From the NCBI GenBank assembly GCA_003354055.1, contig PIVQ01000302.1, positions 1-8,084 of the forward strand: DNA of 8,084 bases, given 5' to 3'. A program made the translations under genes and the position numbers. The stretch comes from Desulfobacteraceae bacterium. GTDB taxonomy: Bacteria > Desulfobacterota > Desulfobacteria > Desulfobacterales > Desulfobacteraceae. A model generated the notes under the pieces. That model was given only the letters and a program-made list of their open reading frames with translations, did not search any database and was not told where the DNA came from. Position 1 is the first letter of the stretch. Each line of letters begins with the position of its first letter. Below are positions 1-8,084 of this stretch, one piece after another.

Positions 1-255
1 GCCTGCGCAAAACCAAATGGCTACATTGTTACCTGTGACGGTTCCTTTCAGCCCAATCAGTTACCTGCAGTCTACAACCGTAAATGCACGGTTCACAAAC
101 ATACACGGGCTGCTATGAATTATACCAATTTTCCTCATCCAGTACGTCCAGCAGATGTAAATGCCTATAGAAACGCCAGATACTGGCTTGTTCCAAGTGG
201 AAGCTTGATTGCCAATAATTCAATGATGTGTTTCGACCGCCTGACCCTGAGTTAA
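1..255 (+). CDS. 3' end of an unrecognised protein (5' end off window)
   Basis: Frame 1 is open from the first base to a TAA at 253-255, giving 84 codons of the C-terminus of a gene that begins upstream of the window. The fragment has four cysteines (residues 2, 12, 29 and 78 of the visible part), many Asn, Tyr and Pro residues, and a motif NARYWLVPSGSL near the end. The Cys content and polar composition would fit an exported, disulfide-stabilised protein such as a pilin-like or surface protein, but I do not recognise the family and assign no function. No obvious terminator follows. It runs in the same direction as the signalling operon at 559 but is 303 bp away and probably unrelated. Coding status is supported mainly by the uninterrupted frame and plausible composition. 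Confidence 0.5.
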   Translation, partial: ACAKPNGYIVTCDGSFQPNQLPAVYNRKCTVHKHTRAAMNYTNFPHPVRPADVNAYRNARYWLVPSGSLIANNSMMCFDRLTLS

Positions 256-558: not shown

Positions 559-1032
559 ATGGCTTTATCTTCACAGGAAATAGGAAGTCTGATATTTAAA
601 CCAACCATCCAGCCGAATCTCGGAAAGCTGGCTCTGGACGGTATGTCGCTCAGCCTTCTCATGCAGTTCGACGGTAAAAAGACACTTGACCAGGTTGCCC
701 GACAAGTGGCGCAGACCCCGTCAGCCATACGCCCGGTGGTTGCAAAACTTCTAAAAGCCAAGCTTATCCAGCCTTTAAACACGACAGAAAAAACCGTAGA
801 CCAGGAATTTATGGGTTATCTTGTCTCCCGGCTGTCCATTGCCATAGGGCCGCTTGGAAGAATCGTTGTTGAAGACGGCCTTGAAATTTTAGGGTACACC
901 GGTGCCACCCTTCCTGTCCGTCAGGCAGCAGAACTGATAAACCTCCTGTCCAGGGAAATTCCCAGGGAAGAGAAAAGAATCCAGTTCCAACAGGACATGC
1001 TCCAGAAAATCAGGGAAAAAAATTACCTGTGA
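559..1032 (+). CDS. Winged-helix-like protein with C-terminal 'IGP' (DUF8082-like) domain
   Basis: This is a 157-aa soluble protein. Residues about 24-73 read as a small helical winged-helix-like unit of the PqqD/DUF4388-tail type: a 'DGKKTLDQVA' turn, then helices ending in LLKAKLIQPL. Residues about 82-150 resemble the DUF8082-type domain found at the C-termini of some bacterial signalling proteins, with the core 'LSIAIGPLGRIVVEDG' (IGP at 96-98) and a downstream 'LINLLSREIPREEKRIQF' helix. That assignment comes from memory of the motif. The start is supported by AGGAA at 548-552, six bases before ATG. It is the first gene of the plus-strand operon, 87 bp before the zinc-ribbon receptor. 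A role as an adaptor or regulator within this signalling cluster is inferred; no catalytic residues are seen. Confidence 0.85.
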   Translation: MALSSQEIGSLIFKPTIQPNLGKLALDGMSLSLLMQFDGKKTLDQVARQVAQTPSAIRPVVAKLLKAKLIQPLNTTEKTVDQEFMGYLVSRLSIAIGPLGRIVVEDGLEILGYTGATLPVRQAAELINLLSREIPREEKRIQFQQDMLQKIREKNYL

Positions 1033-1107
1033 GCCGGGGGAACATGCGGAATGGGAATAAGTTACAAAAAAATTTGAAATTCACCTTGGGTTAGCCCCTG
1101 ACTTGGT

Positions 1108-1113
1108 AAGGAG
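1108..1113 (+). promoter_or_regulatory. Shine-Dalgarno AAGGAG deciding between two adjacent ATGs
   Basis: AAGGAG is followed by AAC and then two consecutive ATG codons (1117 and 1120). Spacing is 3 nt to the first and 6 nt to the second, so the second is favoured. Confidence 0.6.
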
Positions 1114-1119
1114 AACATG

Positions 1120-2400
1120 ATGGAAGTCGTATGTGAAGGATGCGGATCAAAATACAAAATCGATTCTTCAAAGATCAACGGGCCCAATGCCTGGTTTAAG
1201 TGCCAAGGATGTTCCAAGCCCATTAATGTTGACCGGCAGAATCCGGCAGAGGCACCCAATCCTTCCATAGGAAGTGATCTGCCCGTGACAGAGTCCTTCA
1301 CAGATCCAATAGTTCAATCTCCTCCTGAAAAATCATACCGCTTTGGCCTCACTGCAAAGGTCGTCATTTTGATGCTGCTTGTGAGCCTGATTCCCGGGGG
1401 TATTTATTTTGCACTTTCGTCCAAATTATCCCATGAGAGAATATTATCTGAATCCGAAGATCTCGGAATAATGATTTCGGCCCAACTGTCATCGCAGGTG
1501 GACATGTGGATCGATAAGAACGTCCGGGCTCTGAAAACCCTGGCCCATCTGCCCGGAATCCGATCTATGAATGCCGATCAGCAGGAGAGTGTTCTTAAAT
1601 CCCTTCAAAATGAATATCCGTGGATGTACCTAACATTTACGGCGGACATCAACGGACGCAATATTGCCAGAAGTGACGGAAAATCCTTAAGGGATTACGC
1701 CAACAGGCAATATGTCAAAGATATTGCCAGCGGCTCGGAACTGGCCTGGCAGACTCTGATCGGTAAAACATCAAAAAAACCGGCCCTGGTCCTTGCGGTT
1801 CCCATCAAAAGCCGGGGCCGCATTGTCGGGTTGCTGGCAGCGGCAATGACACGGGAGGCCATTTCAAAACGGATCACCACTTTCAAGCAGGGAAAAACCG
1901 GATCAAGCTTTCTTGTTGATCAGACCGGACGTGTTGTGGCACACCGGGATAATGCACTTGTGATGGAGGAACAGGATATGAGTATCCATCCTCTGATCAA
2001 TGCATCACAGTCCGGCCGGAAAGGAAAAATTGAGTTTATTGATGCAAACGGTAAAACCGCCATCGGGTTTACCAAAACCACCGGACTTGGATGGATACTT
2101 GCCATTCAGCAGGAAAAAAGCGAAGCCCTTGAACCCCTCAAGGAGGCACGTTTCTTTGCCTTTGCCCTGCTTGGCGGCACCCTGCTCGTGGTTGTTCTCA
2201 TTGCCCTGTTCGCCAGCCGGACAATTGTCCGGCCGATCACGGAACTAACCGATGCCGCAAACCGGATCAGCGTGGGAGATATGGATGTTGAAATAAATAC
2301 CCGGTCCAAAGACGAAATCGGAGACCTTGCAGAGGCGGTTACCCGGCTCCAGGACAGCATCCGGATTTCGATTTCACGAATGAAGCGCCTGAAGAGATAA
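1120..2400 (+). CDS. Zinc-ribbon / dCache / HAMP membrane receptor without output domain
   Basis: This is a 426-aa membrane protein. Numbered from the ATG at 1120, the order is: an MJ0042-like zinc ribbon with Cys5-Cys8 and Cys28-Cys31; a Pro-rich linker; TM1 at about 79-99; an extracytoplasmic dCache-type sensor at about 105-340, with 'RSDGKSLRDYANRQYVKDI' and 'ALVLAVPIKSRGRIVGLL' as typical Cache strands; TM2 at about 345-365; and HAMP at about 366-420 with RPITEL and the DEIGDL motif. The protein stops right after HAMP with a basic tail, so there is no kinase, cyclase or methyl-accepting domain. The ATG at 1117 is also possible. I chose 1120 because AAGGAG (1108-1113) is then six bases away rather than three, and because the Cys positions then match those of the zinc-ribbon/roadblock protein at 4199-4672 exactly. 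Ligand unknown; the residues are not those of the amino-acid-binding dCache motif. The next gene begins 6 bp later. Confidence 0.9.
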   Translation: MEVVCEGCGSKYKIDSSKINGPNAWFKCQGCSKPINVDRQNPAEAPNPSIGSDLPVTESFTDPIVQSPPEKSYRFGLTAKVVILMLLVSLIPGGIYFALSSKLSHERILSESEDLGIMISAQLSSQVDMWIDKNVRALKTLAHLPGIRSMNADQQESVLKSLQNEYPWMYLTFTADINGRNIARSDGKSLRDYANRQYVKDIASGSELAWQTLIGKTSKKPALVLAVPIKSRGRIVGLLAAAMTREAISKRITTFKQGKTGSSFLVDQTGRVVAHRDNALVMEEQDMSIHPLINASQSGRKGKIEFIDANGKTAIGFTKTTGLGWILAIQQEKSEALEPLKEARFFAFALLGGTLLVVVLIALFASRTIVRPITELTDAANRISVGDMDVEINTRSKDEIGDLAEAVTRLQDSIRISISRMKRLKR

Positions 2401-2406
2401 TTTGCC

Positions 2407-3447
2407 ATGCTGAACTTTCTTTTATTTACAAACGACCCGGCTGTTCGTGACACCATTGAAAAATTCATTTCAGGGCAGGATATTTCCCTCCTCACAGCCT
2501 CCACCTACCAGGAGGCCGCAACCCTCCTTGAAAACACACTTATAGCTCTCGTAGTGGTGGATTTCAACCTATCGCAGATCAAGGGCAAGTCTCTGCTGGA
2601 ACACACGCAAGACCTTTATCCGGATATCCGGCTTATCACCCTGTCACCATCCCCCTTAGAACAGATAGAACTGCCGGCAAATGGATTTACCCCATACGTC
2701 GGTACCTCCTATGTCACAAGAACCTTCCATCAGATCGTTGAATCCGAAATTCGAAACCTGAGCCAGGGGGGGACCATCACCAATGTGTCCACCCATCTGT
2801 TTGCCCAGCTTCTGGAAATGGAGAAGAGAACCTGTGTCCTCAGACTCTTTGAGAAAATAACAAAACACGGGGGGCTTTTGGTTTTCAGGTCCGGAAAACT
2901 TGTTGATGCACGATTTAATACACTCAGCGCCATGGACGCGGCCTGCAGAATATTGGCCTGGGAAGAGGCTGATATTTTTATTCAGAATGTGGAAACTTCC
3001 GGGAAAGACAGGATTGATGCGGATCTGCAGTCCATTATAATGAAATCGGCTTACCTGAAAGATGAGGGTCTGGATTCACCGGCAGCAGCGACTACTCCTA
3101 TGGCAGAGCCTCCAGCTGCAACGCCCCCTGCGACGACTACCCCAACGGCTCCGACCAGAGAGATCTCTTTTCCTGAAAAGCTTAGGCGACATCTTAAAAC
3201 AGACATGGGGGACCGGCAGGGTTTTAACGATATTATCCATGACTCTGACATTGACGGTCTGATCAGTGATTCACAGGCAATGGGATCGATTTTCGATCTT
3301 GGCCGTTTAAAGCTGGGGTATGCCGATGACGGCACCTCTCCGAGAATAATTTTTCCCGGCTCCCCCCCCACGGTGCTGACACTAAATCCTCAATGTCCCC
3401 GGGACAGGGTGACCCAATCAATTAACAGGTTCCTGGATCAATTATGA
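2407..3447 (+). CDS. Degenerate receiver-DUF4388 (PATAN-like) protein
   Basis: This is a 346-aa soluble protein. Residues 1-117 have a response-regulator fold pattern: beta1 'LNFLLFTNDP', the phospho-acceptor position Asp52 in 'VVVDFNL', and Thr78. However, the acidic pair is Asn9-Asp10 and the conserved Lys after beta5 is Thr100, so phosphorylation may be weak or absent. Residues about 118-194 match DUF4388/PATAN: 'LFAQLLEMEKRTCVLRL', then 'FRSGKLVDARFNTLSAMDAA' and 'ILAWEEADIFI'. A Pro/Ala/Thr linker at 224-250 leads to a C-terminal region (255-346) that I do not recognise. PATAN-receiver proteins are known from cyanobacterial taxis (PatA type), where they control pili. Here the neighbours suggest an adaptor downstream of the Cache-HAMP receptor (inference). 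It starts 6 bp after the receptor stop with only a weak ribosome-binding site (likely coupled) and overlaps the next gene by ATGA. Confidence 0.88.
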   Translation: MLNFLLFTNDPAVRDTIEKFISGQDISLLTASTYQEAATLLENTLIALVVVDFNLSQIKGKSLLEHTQDLYPDIRLITLSPSPLEQIELPANGFTPYVGTSYVTRTFHQIVESEIRNLSQGGTITNVSTHLFAQLLEMEKRTCVLRLFEKITKHGGLLVFRSGKLVDARFNTLSAMDAACRILAWEEADIFIQNVETSGKDRIDADLQSIIMKSAYLKDEGLDSPAAATTPMAEPPAATPPATTTPTAPTREISFPEKLRRHLKTDMGDRQGFNDIIHDSDIDGLISDSQAMGSIFDLGRLKLGYADDGTSPRIIFPGSPPTVLTLNPQCPRDRVTQSINRFLDQL

Positions 3448-3788
3448 AAGACATTTTTGACGCCGTTATCGGCCTGGATCAGATTTCCGGAGCGCTCATT
3501 CTGGATGAAGAGGGCAGGGTCGTTTATGACCCCCTTAGATTAAACAAAATTGATCCCCAAACTGAGAAAGATTGGCAACGCCTGATTGATTCGGACCATT
3601 TTCCCGGGGAACTGGATCTGATATTTAAAAAAGGCCGGCTCTATATCAGAAAAATAAAGTCTGTCTATCTTTTGGCCTTCATGGATGCAGACAGCTCTGT
3701 CGCCTCTCTCAAGCTAACCTGCGATATGTTTGAACAGGAAGCGGACAAAAAAAAGCCCCGCAGAGGTTTTTTCAACTTTTTTTCTTGA
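3444..3788 (+). CDS. Small roadblock/LC7-like protein with hydrophobic C-terminal tail
   Basis: This is a 114-aa protein with the roadblock/LC7 layout: an N-terminal helix, then 'GALILDEEGRVVYDPL' (beta1-turn-beta2), a central helix, 'GRLYIRKIKSVYLLAFM' (beta3-beta4), and a final helix 'SVASLKLTCDMFEQE'. Such domains dimerise and act as adaptors or GAP-like partners of Ras/Rab-type GTPases. The match is by secondary-structure pattern and is less certain than for the MglB-like gene at 7132. The C-terminus is basic then aromatic (KKKPRRGFFNFFS), a possible membrane-contact or docking tail (inference). The start codon overlaps the preceding stop as ATGA and has no clear Shine-Dalgarno, implying translational coupling. 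It is the last gene of the plus-strand operon; its 3' end carries the A/U-rich terminator candidate. Confidence 0.8.
   Translation: MKDIFDAVIGLDQISGALILDEEGRVVYDPLRLNKIDPQTEKDWQRLIDSDHFPGELDLIFKKGRLYIRKIKSVYLLAFMDADSSVASLKLTCDMFEQEADKKKPRRGFFNFFS
3747..3785. terminator. Weak A/U-rich bidirectional terminator candidate
   Basis: A8 (3747-3754) followed by G, CC, a 7-nt loop, GG (3765-3766) and T6 (3767-3772) can fold into a stem of six A-T and two G-C pairs with one bulged G. A second run of seven T follows at 3777-3783. Read on the minus strand the hairpin ends in T8. It overlaps the 3' end of the plus-strand roadblock gene and faces the end of the minus-strand operon. The G-C core is short, so confidence is low. 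Confidence 0.3.
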
Positions 3789-3860
3789 TTTCAAAAGGAC
3801 TGAAACGACTGGATTAGGAATCGTTACAAAAGATCAAGTAATTTTGGAGCCGATCCTTAG

Positions 3861-4199
3861 CTACGTTTTTCCGATTTTTCCTTCCACAACATTTATAAAT
3901 TCCATAACTGCCTCTGAAGCTTCAAAATCTGAGACATGGGATTGTTTTTCCACCCCTAAGAAGAAGTTGCCCACAGGAAAAATCAAGATATTCTTTTTAC
4001 TTCTCCTTGAAAGAGAGACATATTTAAAATTGCGATGCCCCAGAGCCCGCAGCCTGTTTCCACACGAAGATACTGCTTTGACTATTTTTCCAGGGGCCTC
4101 CATATCATGTGCCATGAGATTTCCCTTGCCGTCAACCACAATATAGCCGTGAACCCCTTTGATACGACCAATAATTGAAAACAGCCTCTCCACACCCAT
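3861..4199 (-). CDS. Roadblock/LC7-like protein, last gene of minus operon
   Basis: This is a 112-aa protein starting at the ATG at 4199-4197, which overlaps the upstream stop as TGATG. GAGGGA precedes it at a good distance. A longer form from a GTG at 4214 is possible but has no ribosome-binding site. The pattern is roadblock/LC7: an initial helix, 'GVHGYIVVDGKGNLMAHD' (beta1-turn-beta2), helix 'IVKAVSSCGNRLRAL', 'FKYVSLSRRSKKNILIFPV' and 'NFFLGVEKQ' strands, then a C-terminal helix. These are the structural hallmarks of small adaptors that bind MglA/Ras-like GTPases. It has no zinc ribbon, unlike the gene before it, so the two may form a hetero-dimer (inference). It ends with TAG at 3861 and converges on the plus-strand operon. 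Confidence 0.82.
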   Translation of the reverse strand: MGVERLFSIIGRIKGVHGYIVVDGKGNLMAHDMEAPGKIVKAVSSCGNRLRALGHRNFKYVSLSRRSKKNILIFPVGNFFLGVEKQSHVSDFEASEAVMEFINVVEGKIGKT

Positions 4200-4672
4200 C
4201 AGTTCCCTCTGCACAGATCAATAATATGTTTAAGGAGCCCGTCCGGCAAGGCGGGCTTTGTTGTGACAATCACTATGTATAAGGCTCTGGTAATCCTGTG
4301 AACAAAAAAATGTTTATCGGAGATCACAACCATCATCCCATCCATATCCGAACAGGCATCAAGACCCTCTGCATAACTGCGGACCAGTCCAGAGCCCAGG
4401 GCTTCAATATCGTTTCTGTTCAGGACGGCAGGCATTTGTGTGCCAATCACCCTTTCCTCCCTGTCGTATAAAAAGGATCCGACGACTTCAGGGAAAGATA
4501 GGACTTCGCTCAAAAAACGCTCTGTATCATCAAAAGGAAGCGTTGCCCTGACATTGACTGAATAGGCGTTACCATAGCTACAGCTGCTGCATTTAAAAAC
4601 CGCTTTACCGCCGGTAAGAGCCGAGGGAGGAAGATCATTTTTTTTACCGCAGTCTTCACAAAATAAAATCAT
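4199..4672 (-). CDS. Zinc-ribbon / roadblock-LC7 fusion protein
   Basis: This is a 157-aa soluble protein. Residues 1-35 form an MJ0042-like zinc ribbon with Cys5-Cys8 and Cys28-Cys31. Residues about 45-157 follow the roadblock/LC7 pattern: 'FLSEVLSFPEVVGSFLYD' then 'EERVIGTQMP', a central helix 'DIEALGSGLVRSYAEGL', strands 'GMMVVISDKHFFVHRI' and 'ALYIVIVTT', and a final helix 'GLLKHIIDLC'. It starts one base after the TAG of the acidic protein gene (stop 4674-4676, start 4672), with GGAA in the last codons of that gene as ribosome-binding site. Its stop overlaps the next start as TGATG. The Cys positions are identical to those of the receptor at 1120-2400. Likely an adaptor that uses the ribbon for protein or nucleic-acid contact and the roadblock for GTPase-linked dimerisation (inference). 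Confidence 0.85.
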   Translation of the reverse strand: MILFCEDCGKKNDLPPSALTGGKAVFKCSSCSYGNAYSVNVRATLPFDDTERFLSEVLSFPEVVGSFLYDREERVIGTQMPAVLNRNDIEALGSGLVRSYAEGLDACSDMDGMMVVISDKHFFVHRITRALYIVIVTTKPALPDGLLKHIIDLCRGN

Positions 4673-4673
4673 G

Positions 4674-6458
4674 CTAGTTCCGGAACATTGACGTTATCTT
4701 TGCAAAAATTCCGCCTTGAGAAGAACCTTCCGGTTCAGTACTGCCGTCTTCCGATTCGGGCTCTTGCCGGTCGTCATCCTCCCGGTCATCACCGTCCGGC
4801 CCGTCTTCGCCATACTCATGATCCTCCAGGGCCTGATCGTCTTCTTCCGGCTCTTCTGTTTCAGGTTCCGGTTCTTCCTCTTCTGAAGAAAACTCCCTTG
4901 GTTCTGTTTCCAGCGGGGCTATCACTTGATGGTCGGGCTCTTCATGGTCTGATATTTCTATAATCGTTTCTTCCGCATCCACTGTATCCGTTGTTTCCTG
5001 GTCATGGATGTATTGGGTCAACCCGGCCATAAGTGTGAGAAGGCTGCTTTTTTTAGAATCCTCCAGCCACAGTTGTTTTAATTGAAACAGGTCTTCAAGA
5101 ACTTTGGTAAAGACATCGTTCCCTGCCAGCTTTGCCGGGGTTCCCAAAGAGAGCTCCAACCGCTCTAATATAGCGGCATCCTGCTCATTTTCATCCTCAA
5201 TGGGAACGATGGCATCATCAGGAAGTTCTTCTCCGGGCAAGGAAGGATCCGGCACTAAATCAGCATCAATAAGATCTACCTCTTCCCATTCCGGATCATC
5301 TTCCACATCTGTTTCCGGATAACTTTCTTCCGGAACTTCCCTGATTTCAGTCTCAGGGAAATCTTGATTGAAAAAGGCATCCAGGCGGCTCTCAATTTCA
5401 GGGATAGGGGCCTTGTCTGTCCGCTGGGGTGTAAAGTTTTTTATCCCCTCTTCAATTTCCTGCATTGCGTCGGGGGCCATTGCAGTTTCCTGTCCTGAAC
5501 CATGAACGTCTGCAAGGTGAATGGCATCCAGCAGTTCGTCTGCCGGAGAATCTTTAAGAGAGAACAGATCCCCCATGACATCCCTTTGCGGCTGGGGAGA
5601 GTCTTGGCTTTTCCCAATTACCCGGACCGGCTTGACGGCTTCCTCATCCTGCTCTGCAAGCGTGTTCAGGGGAACCACCTCTCCCGTGGATGGAACAGAT
5701 GCAACATGAGACAGGGCCGGAGGAACCTCTTCATCAGGAGGAGCCGGTTTAAGACCTGGTTTGGCCAGCCTGACAATATCCCTCTTCAATTTATTGTAGG
5801 CCTTGATATCACCTTCAATCATCCGTTTTTTCTCTTCCACGGCCATGTCCGGGGCATCAACCAATCTTTCAAAATTTGCAAATACGGACTGTAGCAGCTT
5901 GATGGAATCCTTATGGGCATCGGCCTTACTCCTGGCGACCTCCCCTCCGATGCTGTGAAGAATTCTCAAAAAGGAATAATGAATTTTACTTGCCTTCGCC
6001 TTTTCTTTCAGGCGGGTAATGACGCGGTCAAAGCTTCTCAGCGTTATTTGTGAAATCTCCCAGTCAATGGAAAGGATCACGGCCTTGAGCTCTTCCATTT
6101 CCTTTGCCGATATATGGGGGGCGGCAGCCCGGGCTTTCAGGGATTTGAAAGTCCGGATGCCACGCGCCAGAATTTCATTGGTATCTTCAGGTAATTGAGG
6201 CAATGTCCGGACAAGGATTTCCAACTCCCGAACCAGCGATGCCAGCACCGGTACGGTATCAGGATGTGCATCCTCGGCTTTTGATGCCAGATACCTGCCT
6301 ATGGACCGCATCATCTTGACAAAAGAAGCGGCAGGAGAGATCTCCCGCACCTCTTTTTCCAGTCCTGCCAGCAGGATATCCATCGTCTTTACATCATCGC
6401 CCTGAACCCCGGATTCCATTGCATTGATAATCTGTTTTATCTTTTCAACTGACGCCAA
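4674..6458 (-). CDS. 594-aa acidic protein with tandem 117-residue helical repeat; function unknown
   Basis: This soluble protein has no signal peptide or TM segment. Residues about 8-110 and 125-227 are two copies of a mostly helical unit that align without gaps at an offset of 117 (details under findings). A third, half-length and diverged copy is likely at 449-484. The rest (about 235-580) is low-complexity and strongly acidic (Glu, Asp, Pro), with short hydrophobic islands such as 'DELLDAIHLADVHG' (307-320) and 'SRLDAFFNQDF' (357-367) that could be docking motifs. It ends in GGIFAKITSMFRN, an amphipathic tail. The start is TTG (6458-6456), strongly supported by AAGGAGGT (6470-6463) five bases upstream and by the absence of another suitable start. 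The stop of the MglA-like gene lies inside that ribosome-binding site, so translation is coupled. I do not recognise a named family. A GTPase effector or scaffold is inferred from position only. Confidence 0.85.
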   Translation of the reverse strand: MASVEKIKQIINAMESGVQGDDVKTMDILLAGLEKEVREISPAASFVKMMRSIGRYLASKAEDAHPDTVPVLASLVRELEILVRTLPQLPEDTNEILARGIRTFKSLKARAAAPHISAKEMEELKAVILSIDWEISQITLRSFDRVITRLKEKAKASKIHYSFLRILHSIGGEVARSKADAHKDSIKLLQSVFANFERLVDAPDMAVEEKKRMIEGDIKAYNKLKRDIVRLAKPGLKPAPPDEEVPPALSHVASVPSTGEVVPLNTLAEQDEEAVKPVRVIGKSQDSPQPQRDVMGDLFSLKDSPADELLDAIHLADVHGSGQETAMAPDAMQEIEEGIKNFTPQRTDKAPIPEIESRLDAFFNQDFPETEIREVPEESYPETDVEDDPEWEEVDLIDADLVPDPSLPGEELPDDAIVPIEDENEQDAAILERLELSLGTPAKLAGNDVFTKVLEDLFQLKQLWLEDSKKSSLLTLMAGLTQYIHDQETTDTVDAEETIIEISDHEEPDHQVIAPLETEPREFSSEEEEPEPETEEPEEDDQALEDHEYGEDGPDGDDREDDDRQEPESEDGSTEPEGSSQGGIFAKITSMFRN

Positions 6459-6462
6459 AACA

Positions 6463-6470
6463 ACCTCCTT
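6463..6470 (-). promoter_or_regulatory. Strong Shine-Dalgarno AAGGAGGT fused to upstream stop codon
   Basis: On the minus strand TAAGGAGGT combines the TAA stop of the MglA-like gene (6471-6469) with a near-consensus ribosome-binding site for the TTG start at 6458. The arrangement fixes the unusual TTG start and implies coupled translation. Confidence 0.8.
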
Positions 6471-7074
6471 AGGATATCTGGTCCTGAATGGATACCAGAG
6501 TCATGGATATAATCTTTTTTAACGTGGGAATCACATTTCCTCCGCCAACGGCACTGGCTTCAAAGGCAGGTACCTTTAACAGCCCGTTCAAATCCTTTTG
6601 CAGGGTCTGGGATGCCAGGGTGGGGACATCTGATTTCCTAAAGTCTATCTTATTGTACTGCATGACCAGAGGGATTTTAAACAGATCAATATTATATGTC
6701 TGCAGGTTATCGTAGAGCTGATTCAAGGACTCGATATTTTTTTTACGCAGTTCTTTCTGGATGTCGGCCACAAAAACGATACCGTCCACCCCCCTGAGAA
6801 CCAGCCGGCGGGTGGCATCATATTTTACCTGACCGGGAACGGTGTATAACTGGATGGTCACGTCAAATCCCTTGATCTGCCCAACGTCAAAGGGAAGAAA
6901 GTCAAAGAACAGGGTCCGGTCATCATGAGTCTTCAGGCTGACCATCTCGGTCTTGATCTGTTCCCTGTAAGTCTCGTTTATATATTCCAGATTGGTCGTC
7001 TTTCCGCCCCTTCCGGGACCGTAATAAACGATTTTAATCTGGACTTCTCTGGTTTTTACATTAATCAACGCCAA
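6469..7074 (-). CDS. MglA-like Ras-superfamily GTPase
   Basis: This is a 201-aa small GTPase of the MglA family, which acts as a GTP-controlled switch for cell polarity, motility or pilus positioning in the bacteria where it is known. Visible motifs: P-loop GPGRGGKT at 19-26; the 'THDDRTLFFDFLP' segment with Arg54, equivalent to the M. xanthus MglA intrinsic arginine finger (Arg53); 'TVPGQ' with Gln83, equivalent to the catalytic Gln82; 'YDATRRLVLRGVDG'; and the guanine-specificity motif NKID at 142-145. All key residues are present, so it should be active. The start codon is TTG (7074-7072), chosen because the N-terminus then matches the family (short, ending in KIVYYGPG) and AGGGGGA lies seven bases upstream. 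It sits 57 bp after an MglB-like roadblock gene, the same order as mglBA. I leave the symbol empty because the cluster is not a standard mgl locus. Confidence 0.95.
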   Translation of the reverse strand: MALINVKTREVQIKIVYYGPGRGGKTTNLEYINETYREQIKTEMVSLKTHDDRTLFFDFLPFDVGQIKGFDVTIQLYTVPGQVKYDATRRLVLRGVDGIVFVADIQKELRKKNIESLNQLYDNLQTYNIDLFKIPLVMQYNKIDFRKSDVPTLASQTLQKDLNGLLKVPAFEASAVGGGNVIPTLKKIISMTLVSIQDQIS

Positions 7075-7131
7075 TTCGGGTTCCCCCTTTAATTCAGGGT
7101 TTTTTGGAAATTTATAAGTCTTTTATCCGCA

Positions 7132-7512
7132 TCAGGCCAGAACTTTATTGATTTCCTTAATGGTCTCAGCCACCTTCAGCCTCACGATTCCAAGGGAAAC
7201 ATCTTTATTAAACATGGAAATAAGCAAGGTATCGTCGGTCACTTTGTTAAAATGGATGCTTGATTTCTCGCCCTTATGAAACAACAGTGAAAATTCCGAC
7301 TCCCCCACCAGTTTGGCCATGGCATCCACAGCGGCAAAATTACCTGCGGCCAATGCGGCCAAGGCTGTGGAATCTATAGAAGTTTTGCCGCTGTCATGCT
7401 TGGCAATGGCATTTCCGCTCATGTCCATGTAAATCACATGGTCAATTCCGGTGGTGATCAGATGCGTCTGGATGGCGTTGTCTATGGCATTTAACTGACT
7501 TTTGTTAAACAT
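7132..7512 (-). CDS. MglB-like roadblock/LC7 protein
   Basis: This is a 126-aa protein with a clear roadblock/LC7 domain over most of its length: 'GIDHVIYMDMSGNAIAKHD' (beta1-turn-beta2); the Ala-rich helix 'ALAALAAGNFAAVDAMAKL', typical of MglB-type members; 'EFSLLFHKGEKSSIHFNKV' and 'DTLLISMFN' strands; and 'SLGIVRLKVAETIKEI' as final helix. MglB homodimers act as GAP and nucleotide-exchange partners of MglA; this is the most likely cognate regulator of the GTPase encoded 57 bp downstream. It is shorter than M. xanthus MglB (about 160 aa), mainly at the C-terminus. The start is ATG at 7512, with GGGAG 12 bases upstream, a rather long spacing. A candidate promoter lies at 7546-7575. Confidence 0.92.
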   Translation of the reverse strand: MFNKSQLNAIDNAIQTHLITTGIDHVIYMDMSGNAIAKHDSGKTSIDSTALAALAAGNFAAVDAMAKLVGESEFSLLFHKGEKSSIHFNKVTDDTLLISMFNKDVSLGIVRLKVAETIKEINKVLA

Positions 7513-7545
7513 GGCAAATGGTATCTCCCACTATTTTAATTGTTC

Positions 7546-7575
7546 AATATACATGAATCTTATATTACTTAACAA
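7546..7575 (-). promoter_or_regulatory. Candidate sigma-70-type promoter for the MglB-like/MglA-like operon
   Basis: On the minus strand TTGTTA (7575-7570) is followed after 18 bp by TATATT (7551-7546), matching the -35 consensus at four of six and the -10 at five of six positions. It lies in the 97-bp gap between the receptor stop (7609) and the MglB-like start (7512) and would give a leader of about 28 nt. The gap is otherwise AT-rich with no obvious terminator, so read-through from the receptor gene is also possible. Confidence 0.35.
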
Positions 7576-7608
7576 CAGCCTTAACAGCATCAGCTTGGCT
7601 GCAGTCTC

Positions 7609-8084
7609 CTATCTTCTGGATCTGGACATTGCTATTTTCAGGCTTGTGACCAACCGGTTGAATGATTCAATCAGAACACCGATTTCATCTGTCCGCCTGT
7701 TGGATATTTCTTCAAGATCCATTTGGCCCTGGGATATCAATTCGGCTCTCATGGCAAGCGCGTTGATCGGCTTTGTAATACCGCTGCCGATCATCAGGCC
7801 TACGAAGATGGCCACAATAACAACACCCACCCAGACCCCGATGATGATTTTTTGAATTTGGGCCGCAGGCCGCATGACCACCTCTTCAGAAACAACGATT
7901 CCGACACTTGCGTCAATGGCCGGCAGCGGTGCATAGGCAACGATAATTCTGCTATCACCCTCCGTATGGGTGCCGATACCCGTCTCCCCCGCCATCATGC
8001 GTTTAATGATGGCCTTGAACTCCTGATTGTTACTTGCCAGGGCATTGTCTGTTTTCACAACCTCGTTCCAGGCAATATTTTTAC
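7609..8084 (-). CDS. Cache / TM / HAMP receptor without output domain (5' end off window)
   Basis: The reading frame stays open to the window edge, so the GTG at 8058 is an internal codon and the gene starts beyond 8084. The visible 158 residues are: the end of an extracytoplasmic Cache-type sensor ('GIGTHTEGDSRIIVAYAPL', 'SVGIVVSEEVVMRPA'); one TM helix ('IIIGVWVGVVIVAIFVGLMI'); and a HAMP domain with 'ITKPINAL' and 'RRTDEIGVLIESFNRL'. The protein stops (TAG at 7609-7611) just after HAMP with the basic tail SLKIAMSRSRR, just as the receptor at 1120-2400 ends in SRMKRLKR. No histidine kinase, GGDEF or methyl-accepting region follows. It is upstream of the MglB-like gene on the same strand, suggesting that the receptor feeds the roadblock/GTPase module. 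Whether it also begins with a zinc ribbon cannot be seen. Confidence 0.88.
   Translation of the reverse strand, partial: KNIAWNEVVKTDNALASNNQEFKAIIKRMMAGETGIGTHTEGDSRIIVAYAPLPAIDASVGIVVSEEVVMRPAAQIQKIIIGVWVGVVIVAIFVGLMIGSGITKPINALAMRAELISQGQMDLEEISNRRTDEIGVLIESFNRLVTSLKIAMSRSRR

Follow-up and report, generated by a model that had tools for sequence, protein, structure and literature searches.

In Myxococcus xanthus, the GTP-bound form of the small GTPase MglA binds SgmX, a tetratricopeptide repeat (TPR) protein that is important for polar PilB (PMC7519303), and RomY shows that the MglA partner MglB can itself work with a partner, an arrangement that its authors compare with Ragulator (PMC9481161). 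The PATAN regulator PixE has been hypothesized to bind PilB1 (PMC7690835). Some Group 1 mglA genes are located near PATAN genes (PMC4316618), so the MglA–PATAN link is not new in itself; the mglA gene of M. xanthus is not located near the genes of its response-regulator partners (PMC4316618). Here, we analyze an 8,084-nt stretch of DNA from a Desulfobacteraceae bacterium (contig PIVQ01000302.1, assembly GCA_003354055.1; the whole stretch is called the window below), whose ten genes, A to J, include an MglA-type GTPase (H), its MglB-type neighbor (I), two membrane receptors (B and J), and several roadblock-like proteins. With moderate confidence, we read them as a single signaling system, in which membrane receptors would act through the MglA-type switch on the extension ATPase of a type IV pilus or pilus-like machine.

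This reading is built on which genes are present and how they are ordered, on domain matches and GTPase motifs, on a PilB-like gene in related operons, and on a shared C-terminal tail. In eukaryotes, receptors acting on small GTPases are familiar; to our knowledge, they are little described in bacteria outside the conservons of actinobacteria.

Gene order in the window and in related genomes

The original prediction described two facing operons with ten open reading frames (ORFs), and all ten are present at the positions claimed: four rightward (A–D) and six leftward (E–J), with D and E converging and neighbors spaced by -16 to 96 nt, i.e., tightly packed (Table 1). It also held that the two operons belong to one system, which is borne out: in the order searched, these families are usually joined in a single collinear operon, and strong A matches occur in the same genomes as D.

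A profile of D, which avoids H as the anchor, was searched against 194 genomes from the order of Desulfospira joergensenii (which we take to be Desulfobacterales) and matched in 62 of them. Counts refer to 42 of the 64 D loci in these genomes, namely those where a labeled D has upstream and downstream flanks of more than 7.5 kb and 2.8 kb, respectively (in L118, L155, and L160, the gene picker left D unlabeled; the remaining exclusions had short flanks); three of the 42 (L097, L115, L116) come from genomes also present in the H scan described below. The first hidden Markov models for B, C, F, and J drifted to other zinc-ribbon, receiver, and HAMP proteins, and the counts come from models rebuilt from clusters. 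With X as a further family and Z as a PilB-like ATPase, all nine genes I-H-G-A-B-X-C-D-Z lie in this order on one strand in 31 of the 42 loci; the order is broken in two (L140, L143). Counted singly, C occurs in 40 loci, H and G in 39 each, I in 38, A, B, and X in 37 each, and Z in 35; three loci (L120, L121, L143) have D without H. At the label threshold, E, F, and P4 (a protein introduced below) were found in none of the 64 D loci.

The reverse view comes from an H-profile scan, which yielded 55 loci from Desulfo- taxa, Deltaproteobacteria, or Proteobacteria. In 50 of them (L012, L028, L050, L052, and L055 left out), D is present in 11 genomes, and A scores at least 117 bits in those same 11; seven more genomes have A matches only, at 88 bits or less. 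The other 39 genomes lack D though they contain mglB-mglA-G. The dependence is therefore one-sided: the A–D set rarely occurs without mglA, and mglB-mglA-G often occurs without D. Whether the two operons occur independently in most genomes thus has a different answer from each side, no from D and yes from the GTPase.

Two layouts account for much of this pattern. In the first, found in Desulfobacula and its kin, the operon reads I-H-G-F-E, and in 17 loci it converges with a gene for a protein of 408–409 aa, P4, with a DUF4388 match of 113 bits in the one member scanned. In the second, I, H, a short G, A, a zinc-ribbon receptor, X, sometimes Y, C, and D follow one another on a single strand, and in some loci D is followed by Z, an ATPase of about 787 aa. 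The neighbors of I-H-G are different in Desulfobulbaceae-like loci. In an H tree made with a quick method, which took in every second eligible D-anchored locus, the window falls inside the clade of F/E loci (SH-aLRT 99). Judged from this tree and the layouts, the window combines a GTPase operon of the first layout with an A–D module of the second, placed where the first has P4. It is a rearranged version: it is split and convergent, carries two additional small proteins, and shows no ATPase within its limits. Its system derives from an operon common in its order and most probably controls a pilus-type ATPase through an MglA switch.

A convergent layout very similar to that of the window exists in L043 (MAG.124), where H-G-F-E faces D-C-A, without B. 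In addition, 6 of 9 D relatives from outside the window have a largest contig equal in size to that of a G or F relative. An assembly chimera as the source of the layout is ruled out by these two observations. Named relatives of G, which has at least 154 matches including itself, are mostly from Desulfobacter and its family, and two named D relatives belong to Desulfobacter sp.

It could still be supposed that a general MglB-MglA-G-F-E polarity operon faces an unrelated receptor/DUF4388 operon by chance. The 39 genomes with mglB-mglA-G and no D would suit this idea, as would seven fetched stretches in which A and a zinc-ribbon receptor are paired without a labeled mglA, and the grouping of the window's H with F/E-type rather than D-type loci; it conflicts with the presence of both sets in one operon and one order in 31 of 42 loci, with the rarity of D without H, and with the same convergent arrangement in L043. 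We regard such independence as very improbable, and chance neighborhood is rejected on the collinear D-anchored loci.

Three observations lie beside these comparisons. L120 and L121 carry D homologues beside large unlabeled proteins, without labeled mglA or C; D may take part in another system. A genome of the first layout (G050) has a second, diverged operon (L071:3998-13732) with MglB, MglA, DUF4388, X, A, a G-like protein, a PilB-like ATPase, and a zinc-ribbon receptor. At the window's edge, positions 1-255 (+) hold a cut ORF with no Pfam match at E <= 0.1.

Table 1. Genes of the window, listed by position.
Gene	Coordinates	Strand	Description
A	559..1032	+	157 aa, soluble; winged helix N-terminal, helical part C-terminal
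B	1117..2400	+	Receptor: cytoplasmic MJ0042-type zinc ribbon, transmembrane segment, periplasmic dCache, transmembrane segment, HAMP; no output domain matched
C	2407..3447	+	Receiver-like domain, DUF4388/PATAN, C-terminal domain possibly of roadblock type
D	3444..3788	+	114 aa, predicted roadblock fold, basic-aromatic tail at C-terminus
E	3861..4214	-	117 aa, roadblock-like
F	4199..4672	-	Zinc ribbon and possible roadblock domain
G	4674..6458	-	594 aa; acidic second half; region in common with G proteins of about 210-270 aa of related operons
H	6469..7074	-	Group 1 MglA-type GTPase
I	7132..7512	-	MglB-type roadblock protein, adjoins H
J	7609..8082	-	Second receptor, 5' end outside the window; end of periplasmic part, transmembrane segment, HAMP

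The GTPase, its roadblock-like companions, and protein G

The claim of one complete MglA-like GTPase is confirmed for H, whose residues 1-196 match the solved structure of M. xanthus MglA at 7.6e-52 and which Pfam places among the Ras-like GTPases. The Group 1 signature comprises an Arg beside the G2 Thr (DRT), TVPGQ in G3, and NKxD in G4 (PMC4316618). In 100 H sequences (45 of them D-anchored and chosen by a score above 330 bits; 96 distinct ends), DRT is present in 99, TVPGQ in 100, and NKxD in 99, the misses being truncated rows; on these motifs, the family is assigned to the Group 1 MglA type. Nine lower-scoring H matches lie outside this count, of which five are second copies beside the operon that keep TVPGQ and have lost DRT. 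These second MglA-like genes (251-293 bits), without the DRT Arg, are located upstream of the operon in L149, L150, L151, L152, and L158 and perhaps encode a GTPase with altered hydrolysis.

The neighboring I is a clear roadblock protein (Robl_LC7, 32.7 bits, cut-off 23), with 64.2 bits against the MglB model, under that model's cut-off of 200. A match to I precedes H in 54 of the 55 H-scan loci, and the sole miss is a contig that starts within H.

Four roadblock proteins had been proposed, and beyond I the support is graded. D gives no Pfam match to the roadblock family; its AlphaFold model has roadblock topology, and structural matches from Foldseek and VIA agree, which makes it a roadblock-fold protein by predicted structure. 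In VIA, profilins tie with roadblocks and MglB also matches; the Foldseek matches include Ragulator (LAMTOR) chains. E appears roadblock-like by profile: with 17 sequences, dynein roadblocks make up 12 of the 14 PDB matches at E <= 1 (best 0.0031), and Robl_LC7 matches 4 of the 17 members at E <= 1 and is below cut-off in the window's E. For F, roadblock identity is suggestive only. Its zinc ribbon has Cys5, Cys8, Cys28, and Cys31 invariant in 22 of 22 members; the second half without it has a roadblock as best PDB match at an insignificant E of 0.76 (whole F, 0.21-0.48), and Robl_LC7 is absent among the matches listed (25 of 39 Pfam families) for the 22 members (L011, L012, and L015 left out of the F profiles). 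By eye, short proteins at L012:3209-3670 and L015:12246-12716 look like fusions of the zinc ribbon of F with a domain of E type. Alignments to I with hhalign were convincing for none of the three (D 0.6%, E 8.8%, F 0.2%); F to D reached 58%. A fifth roadblock is possibly formed by the C-terminal domain of C (residues 255-345), whose predicted secondary structure fits the fold except for the second strand. Here, hhalign to D gave 11.6%, neither of the two PDB profile matches at E <= 5 is a roadblock, and the receiver domain filled the VIA match list of C.

G, the large acidic protein of the original prediction, is indeed acidic in its second half, as judged by eye. It has no Pfam match, is matched by a profile of short G proteins at 171 bits, and may serve as a scaffold. 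D ends in a basic stretch followed by an aromatic motif, and P4 and long G, which seem otherwise unrelated, have similar ends; in the window, these tails lie at 3752-3785 (+) in D and 4677-4730 (-) in G. As the pattern was chosen after the tails had been seen, the counts are descriptive and not a test: among distinct sequences (D rows above 60 bits), the pattern with a net charge of at least 2 is found in 45 of 67 D, 10 of 21 long G, and 15 of 17 P4 proteins, in 0 of 32 short G proteins, and in none of the proteins tested from the E, F, I, H, A, B, C, and X families. The background is 7 of 1022 other nearby ORFs, at least one of which looks like a missed G tail. The natural reading of the tail would be a membrane tether or a docking peptide.

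In a bolder version, to which we give little credence, the system would be a Ragulator analogue: membrane-anchored receptors would hold several different roadblocks (I, D, E, F, and possibly the last domain of C) on the G scaffold, as a platform that would load and unload one MglA according to periplasmic ligand, and Z, the effector of MglA-GTP, would fuse the roles of SgmX and PilB, with the TPR-like part built in. If true, a full path from receptor to GTPase to motor would be contained within one operon.

Receptors, receiver protein, and output

The prediction of two Cache-HAMP receptors holds for B, with dCache_1 (78.6 bits) and HAMP (52.9 bits) above cut-off, Zn_ribbon_4 just below it (29.2 vs. 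30.3), and two transmembrane segments (residues 74-102 and 343-375). J, cut by the window edge, shows a transmembrane segment and a HAMP match only, and a Cache domain is suggested by a relative: L055, which belongs to the same MAG.124 as L043, has directly before I a 505-aa receptor (dCache_1 79.1 bits, HAMP 35.2 bits, zinc ribbon below cut-off) that is likely the full-length counterpart of J. Neither B nor this relative gave a Pfam match to HisKA or HATPase. Opposite the 505-aa receptor, at L055:4500-7795, a run of genes reads by eye as CheB, CheX-like, CheY, HDOD, and CheD.

The N-terminal half of A belongs to the winged-helix type (HTH_47 in 8 of 10 family members at E <= 1, best 2e-4), with weak matches to solved HTH regulators (best E 0.004). 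A 'DUF8082-like' protein had been predicted and was not recovered for A: DUF8082 is not among the 25 Pfam families that match the 10 A-family members at E <= 1, with the presence of DUF8082 in this Pfam copy left unchecked. Pairs of A and a zinc-ribbon receptor, with no mglA labeled in the fetched stretch, occur in L068, L069, L070, L073, L074, L075, and L076; A may thus partner such receptors more generally. A search for an A-type domain gave weak hhalign values for P4 (35%) and for a possible A–C fusion (19%), the REC-DUF4388 protein at L016:5155-6351, in which the likeness is between the C-terminal part and A's second half. A zinc ribbon of the receptor type (below cut-off) also stands at the N-terminus of a ParA/MinD-like ATPase at L018:14115-15071, of a cluster found in 7 loci. 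The zinc ribbon of GltJ in Myxococcus reportedly binds MglA. The literature found on GltJ speaks of an MglA–GltJ contact at most, with no mention of a zinc ribbon (PMC3169522, PMC12288465).

It is also conceivable that the GTPase complex acts on transcription through A, with the pilus-type ATPase as a passenger or a regulated gene. The winged-helix matches of A are in keeping with this, and Group 3 MglA operons include a protein with a receiver-like and a wHTH-like fold (PMC4316618); we consider transcription control rather unlikely and continue with the pilus-directed system.

C had been described as a degenerate receiver-DUF4388 protein. Its DUF4388 is clear (33.2 bits, cut-off 25), and its receiver (25.6 bits, under the cut-off of 30.2) is degenerate only in part: all 10 proteins aligned have the acceptor Asp52 (L016 left out of the profile), and the acidic pair and Lys are lost in the window and L043 and kept in eight proteins of the second layout. 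The C-type protein of L035 reaches 91.3 bits for the receiver. The predicted absence of kinases fits the window but not the family, given the eight intact receivers and the kinase-like genes in the loci scanned (L035, L024, and L022). An upstream gene in L035 encodes PAS-PAS and a HisKA below cut-off and lacks the ATPase part; a PAS protein of similar kind, its HisKA also below cut-off, is encoded in L024; and L024 and L022 have a HATPase protein, above cut-off, before I. With intact receivers and these genes, phosphorylation is probably part of the family and weakened in the window's lineage.

Z, which is encoded in relatives and gives the strongest hint at the output, matches PilB best (351 bits, an entry that we take to be that of Geobacter), then GspE (331), and PilT far lower (111). 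About 210 residues precede the PilB homology and are TPR-like in one copy (2.7e-4, below cut-off). Among 14 genomes searched, full-length Z is encoded in G033 and G034 (two each) and G050 (one, 42% identical). Second full-length extended copies lie away from the D match at G034:C1:3784712-3787087 and G033:C55:22732-25110. With the GTPase system taken as real, Z might still power a machine for secretion or DNA uptake in place of pili at the surface; we find this unlikely, given the better match to PilB than to GspE and the outputs described for MglA and PATAN proteins in PMC7690835 and PMC7519303, which are pili, neither point being decisive.

For the pilus-directed system, we propose the following mechanism. 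The Cache domain of B or J would bind a periplasmic cue, and HAMP would relay the change into the cytoplasm; there, the receptor offers a zinc ribbon and no enzyme, and A is its likely partner. This would alter the place and amount of GTP-bound MglA (H). I would be the GTPase-activating protein (GAP), and D, E, and perhaps F could take its place in dimers or serve as scaffold partners. The complex would be kept at the membrane by G together with the tails of both D and G, and the DUF4388 protein C would act with MglA-GTP on the PilB-like ATPase. We infer each binding and activity step, as well as the direction of the signal and a PilB encoded elsewhere as the target in the window's lineage.

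Several observations weigh against this scheme. Z is not present in the window, and, of 14 genomes searched, neither G041, whose layout is that of the window, nor ten more from the clade of the window's GTPase gave a match that covers any of the N-terminal extension; all their matches start at residue 212 or later. The output in the window's lineage is thus something we can only infer, and it would have to act through another protein, provided that it is a pilus. In M. xanthus, a contact between MglA and PilB was not detected (PMC7519303). To these must be added the 39 of 50 genomes without D; the 17 loci in which a single DUF4388-type protein (one scanned) faces the GTPase operon at the place of A–D; the tail pattern, chosen after the fact, and the window's own D and G, which fit it and fail the charge rule (net 1 and 0); and the winged helix of A as a possible sign of gene regulation.

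Comparison with described systems

A literature search of titles and the starts of abstracts, without supplements, found no description that we recognized as this operon. In its relatives, one operon aligns a candidate sensor, a switch, GAP-type proteins, a scaffold, and a pilus-type motor. Two questions thereby become open to direct experiment: what signal determines the state of MglA, and for what reason a single GTPase is given more than one roadblock-like partner.

The MglA/MglB module of M. xanthus (RomR/RomX, RomY, SgmX, PilB) shares with this family the Group 1 motifs, an MglB-type partner, a link to PilB, and several regulators around one GTPase. It differs in that here one operon brings together Cache-HAMP zinc-ribbon receptors, more roadblock-like proteins, G, and a REC-DUF4388 protein, and in that the relatives encode a PilB with its own N-terminal extension. 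With the PATAN regulators of type IV pili (PixE/PilB1 in Synechocystis), C shares a receiver and DUF4388 and, in relatives, proximity to a PilB-like ATPase; unlike them, C has an extra C-terminal domain and sits in a GTPase operon, and its receiver in the window has lost the acidic pair and Lys. Eukaryotic Ragulator (LAMTOR) likewise offers several different roadblock-fold subunits for small GTPases, and its chains are among the Foldseek matches of D; this likeness is at the fold level only, since MglB and profilins match D too.

The best parallel in mode of action is given by the actinobacterial conservons (CvnA-D), which combine a membrane HAMP protein, an MglB-type roadblock, and an MglA-type GTPase in one operon. 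None of the ten window proteins has a Pfam match to DUF742, presumably the family of CvnC. In conservons, the membrane protein CvnA is a histidine kinase, and the GTPase belongs to Group 2 (PMC4316618), whereas here the receptors show nothing after HAMP and the GTPase is of Group 1. No CvnA-type kinase was found in B or in the full-length relative of J, and the Group 2-5 motif GTPGQ occurs in 0 of the 100 H sequences; on these two grounds the system is not a conservon, yet, as far as its sequences allow a comparison, it works like one with an MglA-to-pilus output.

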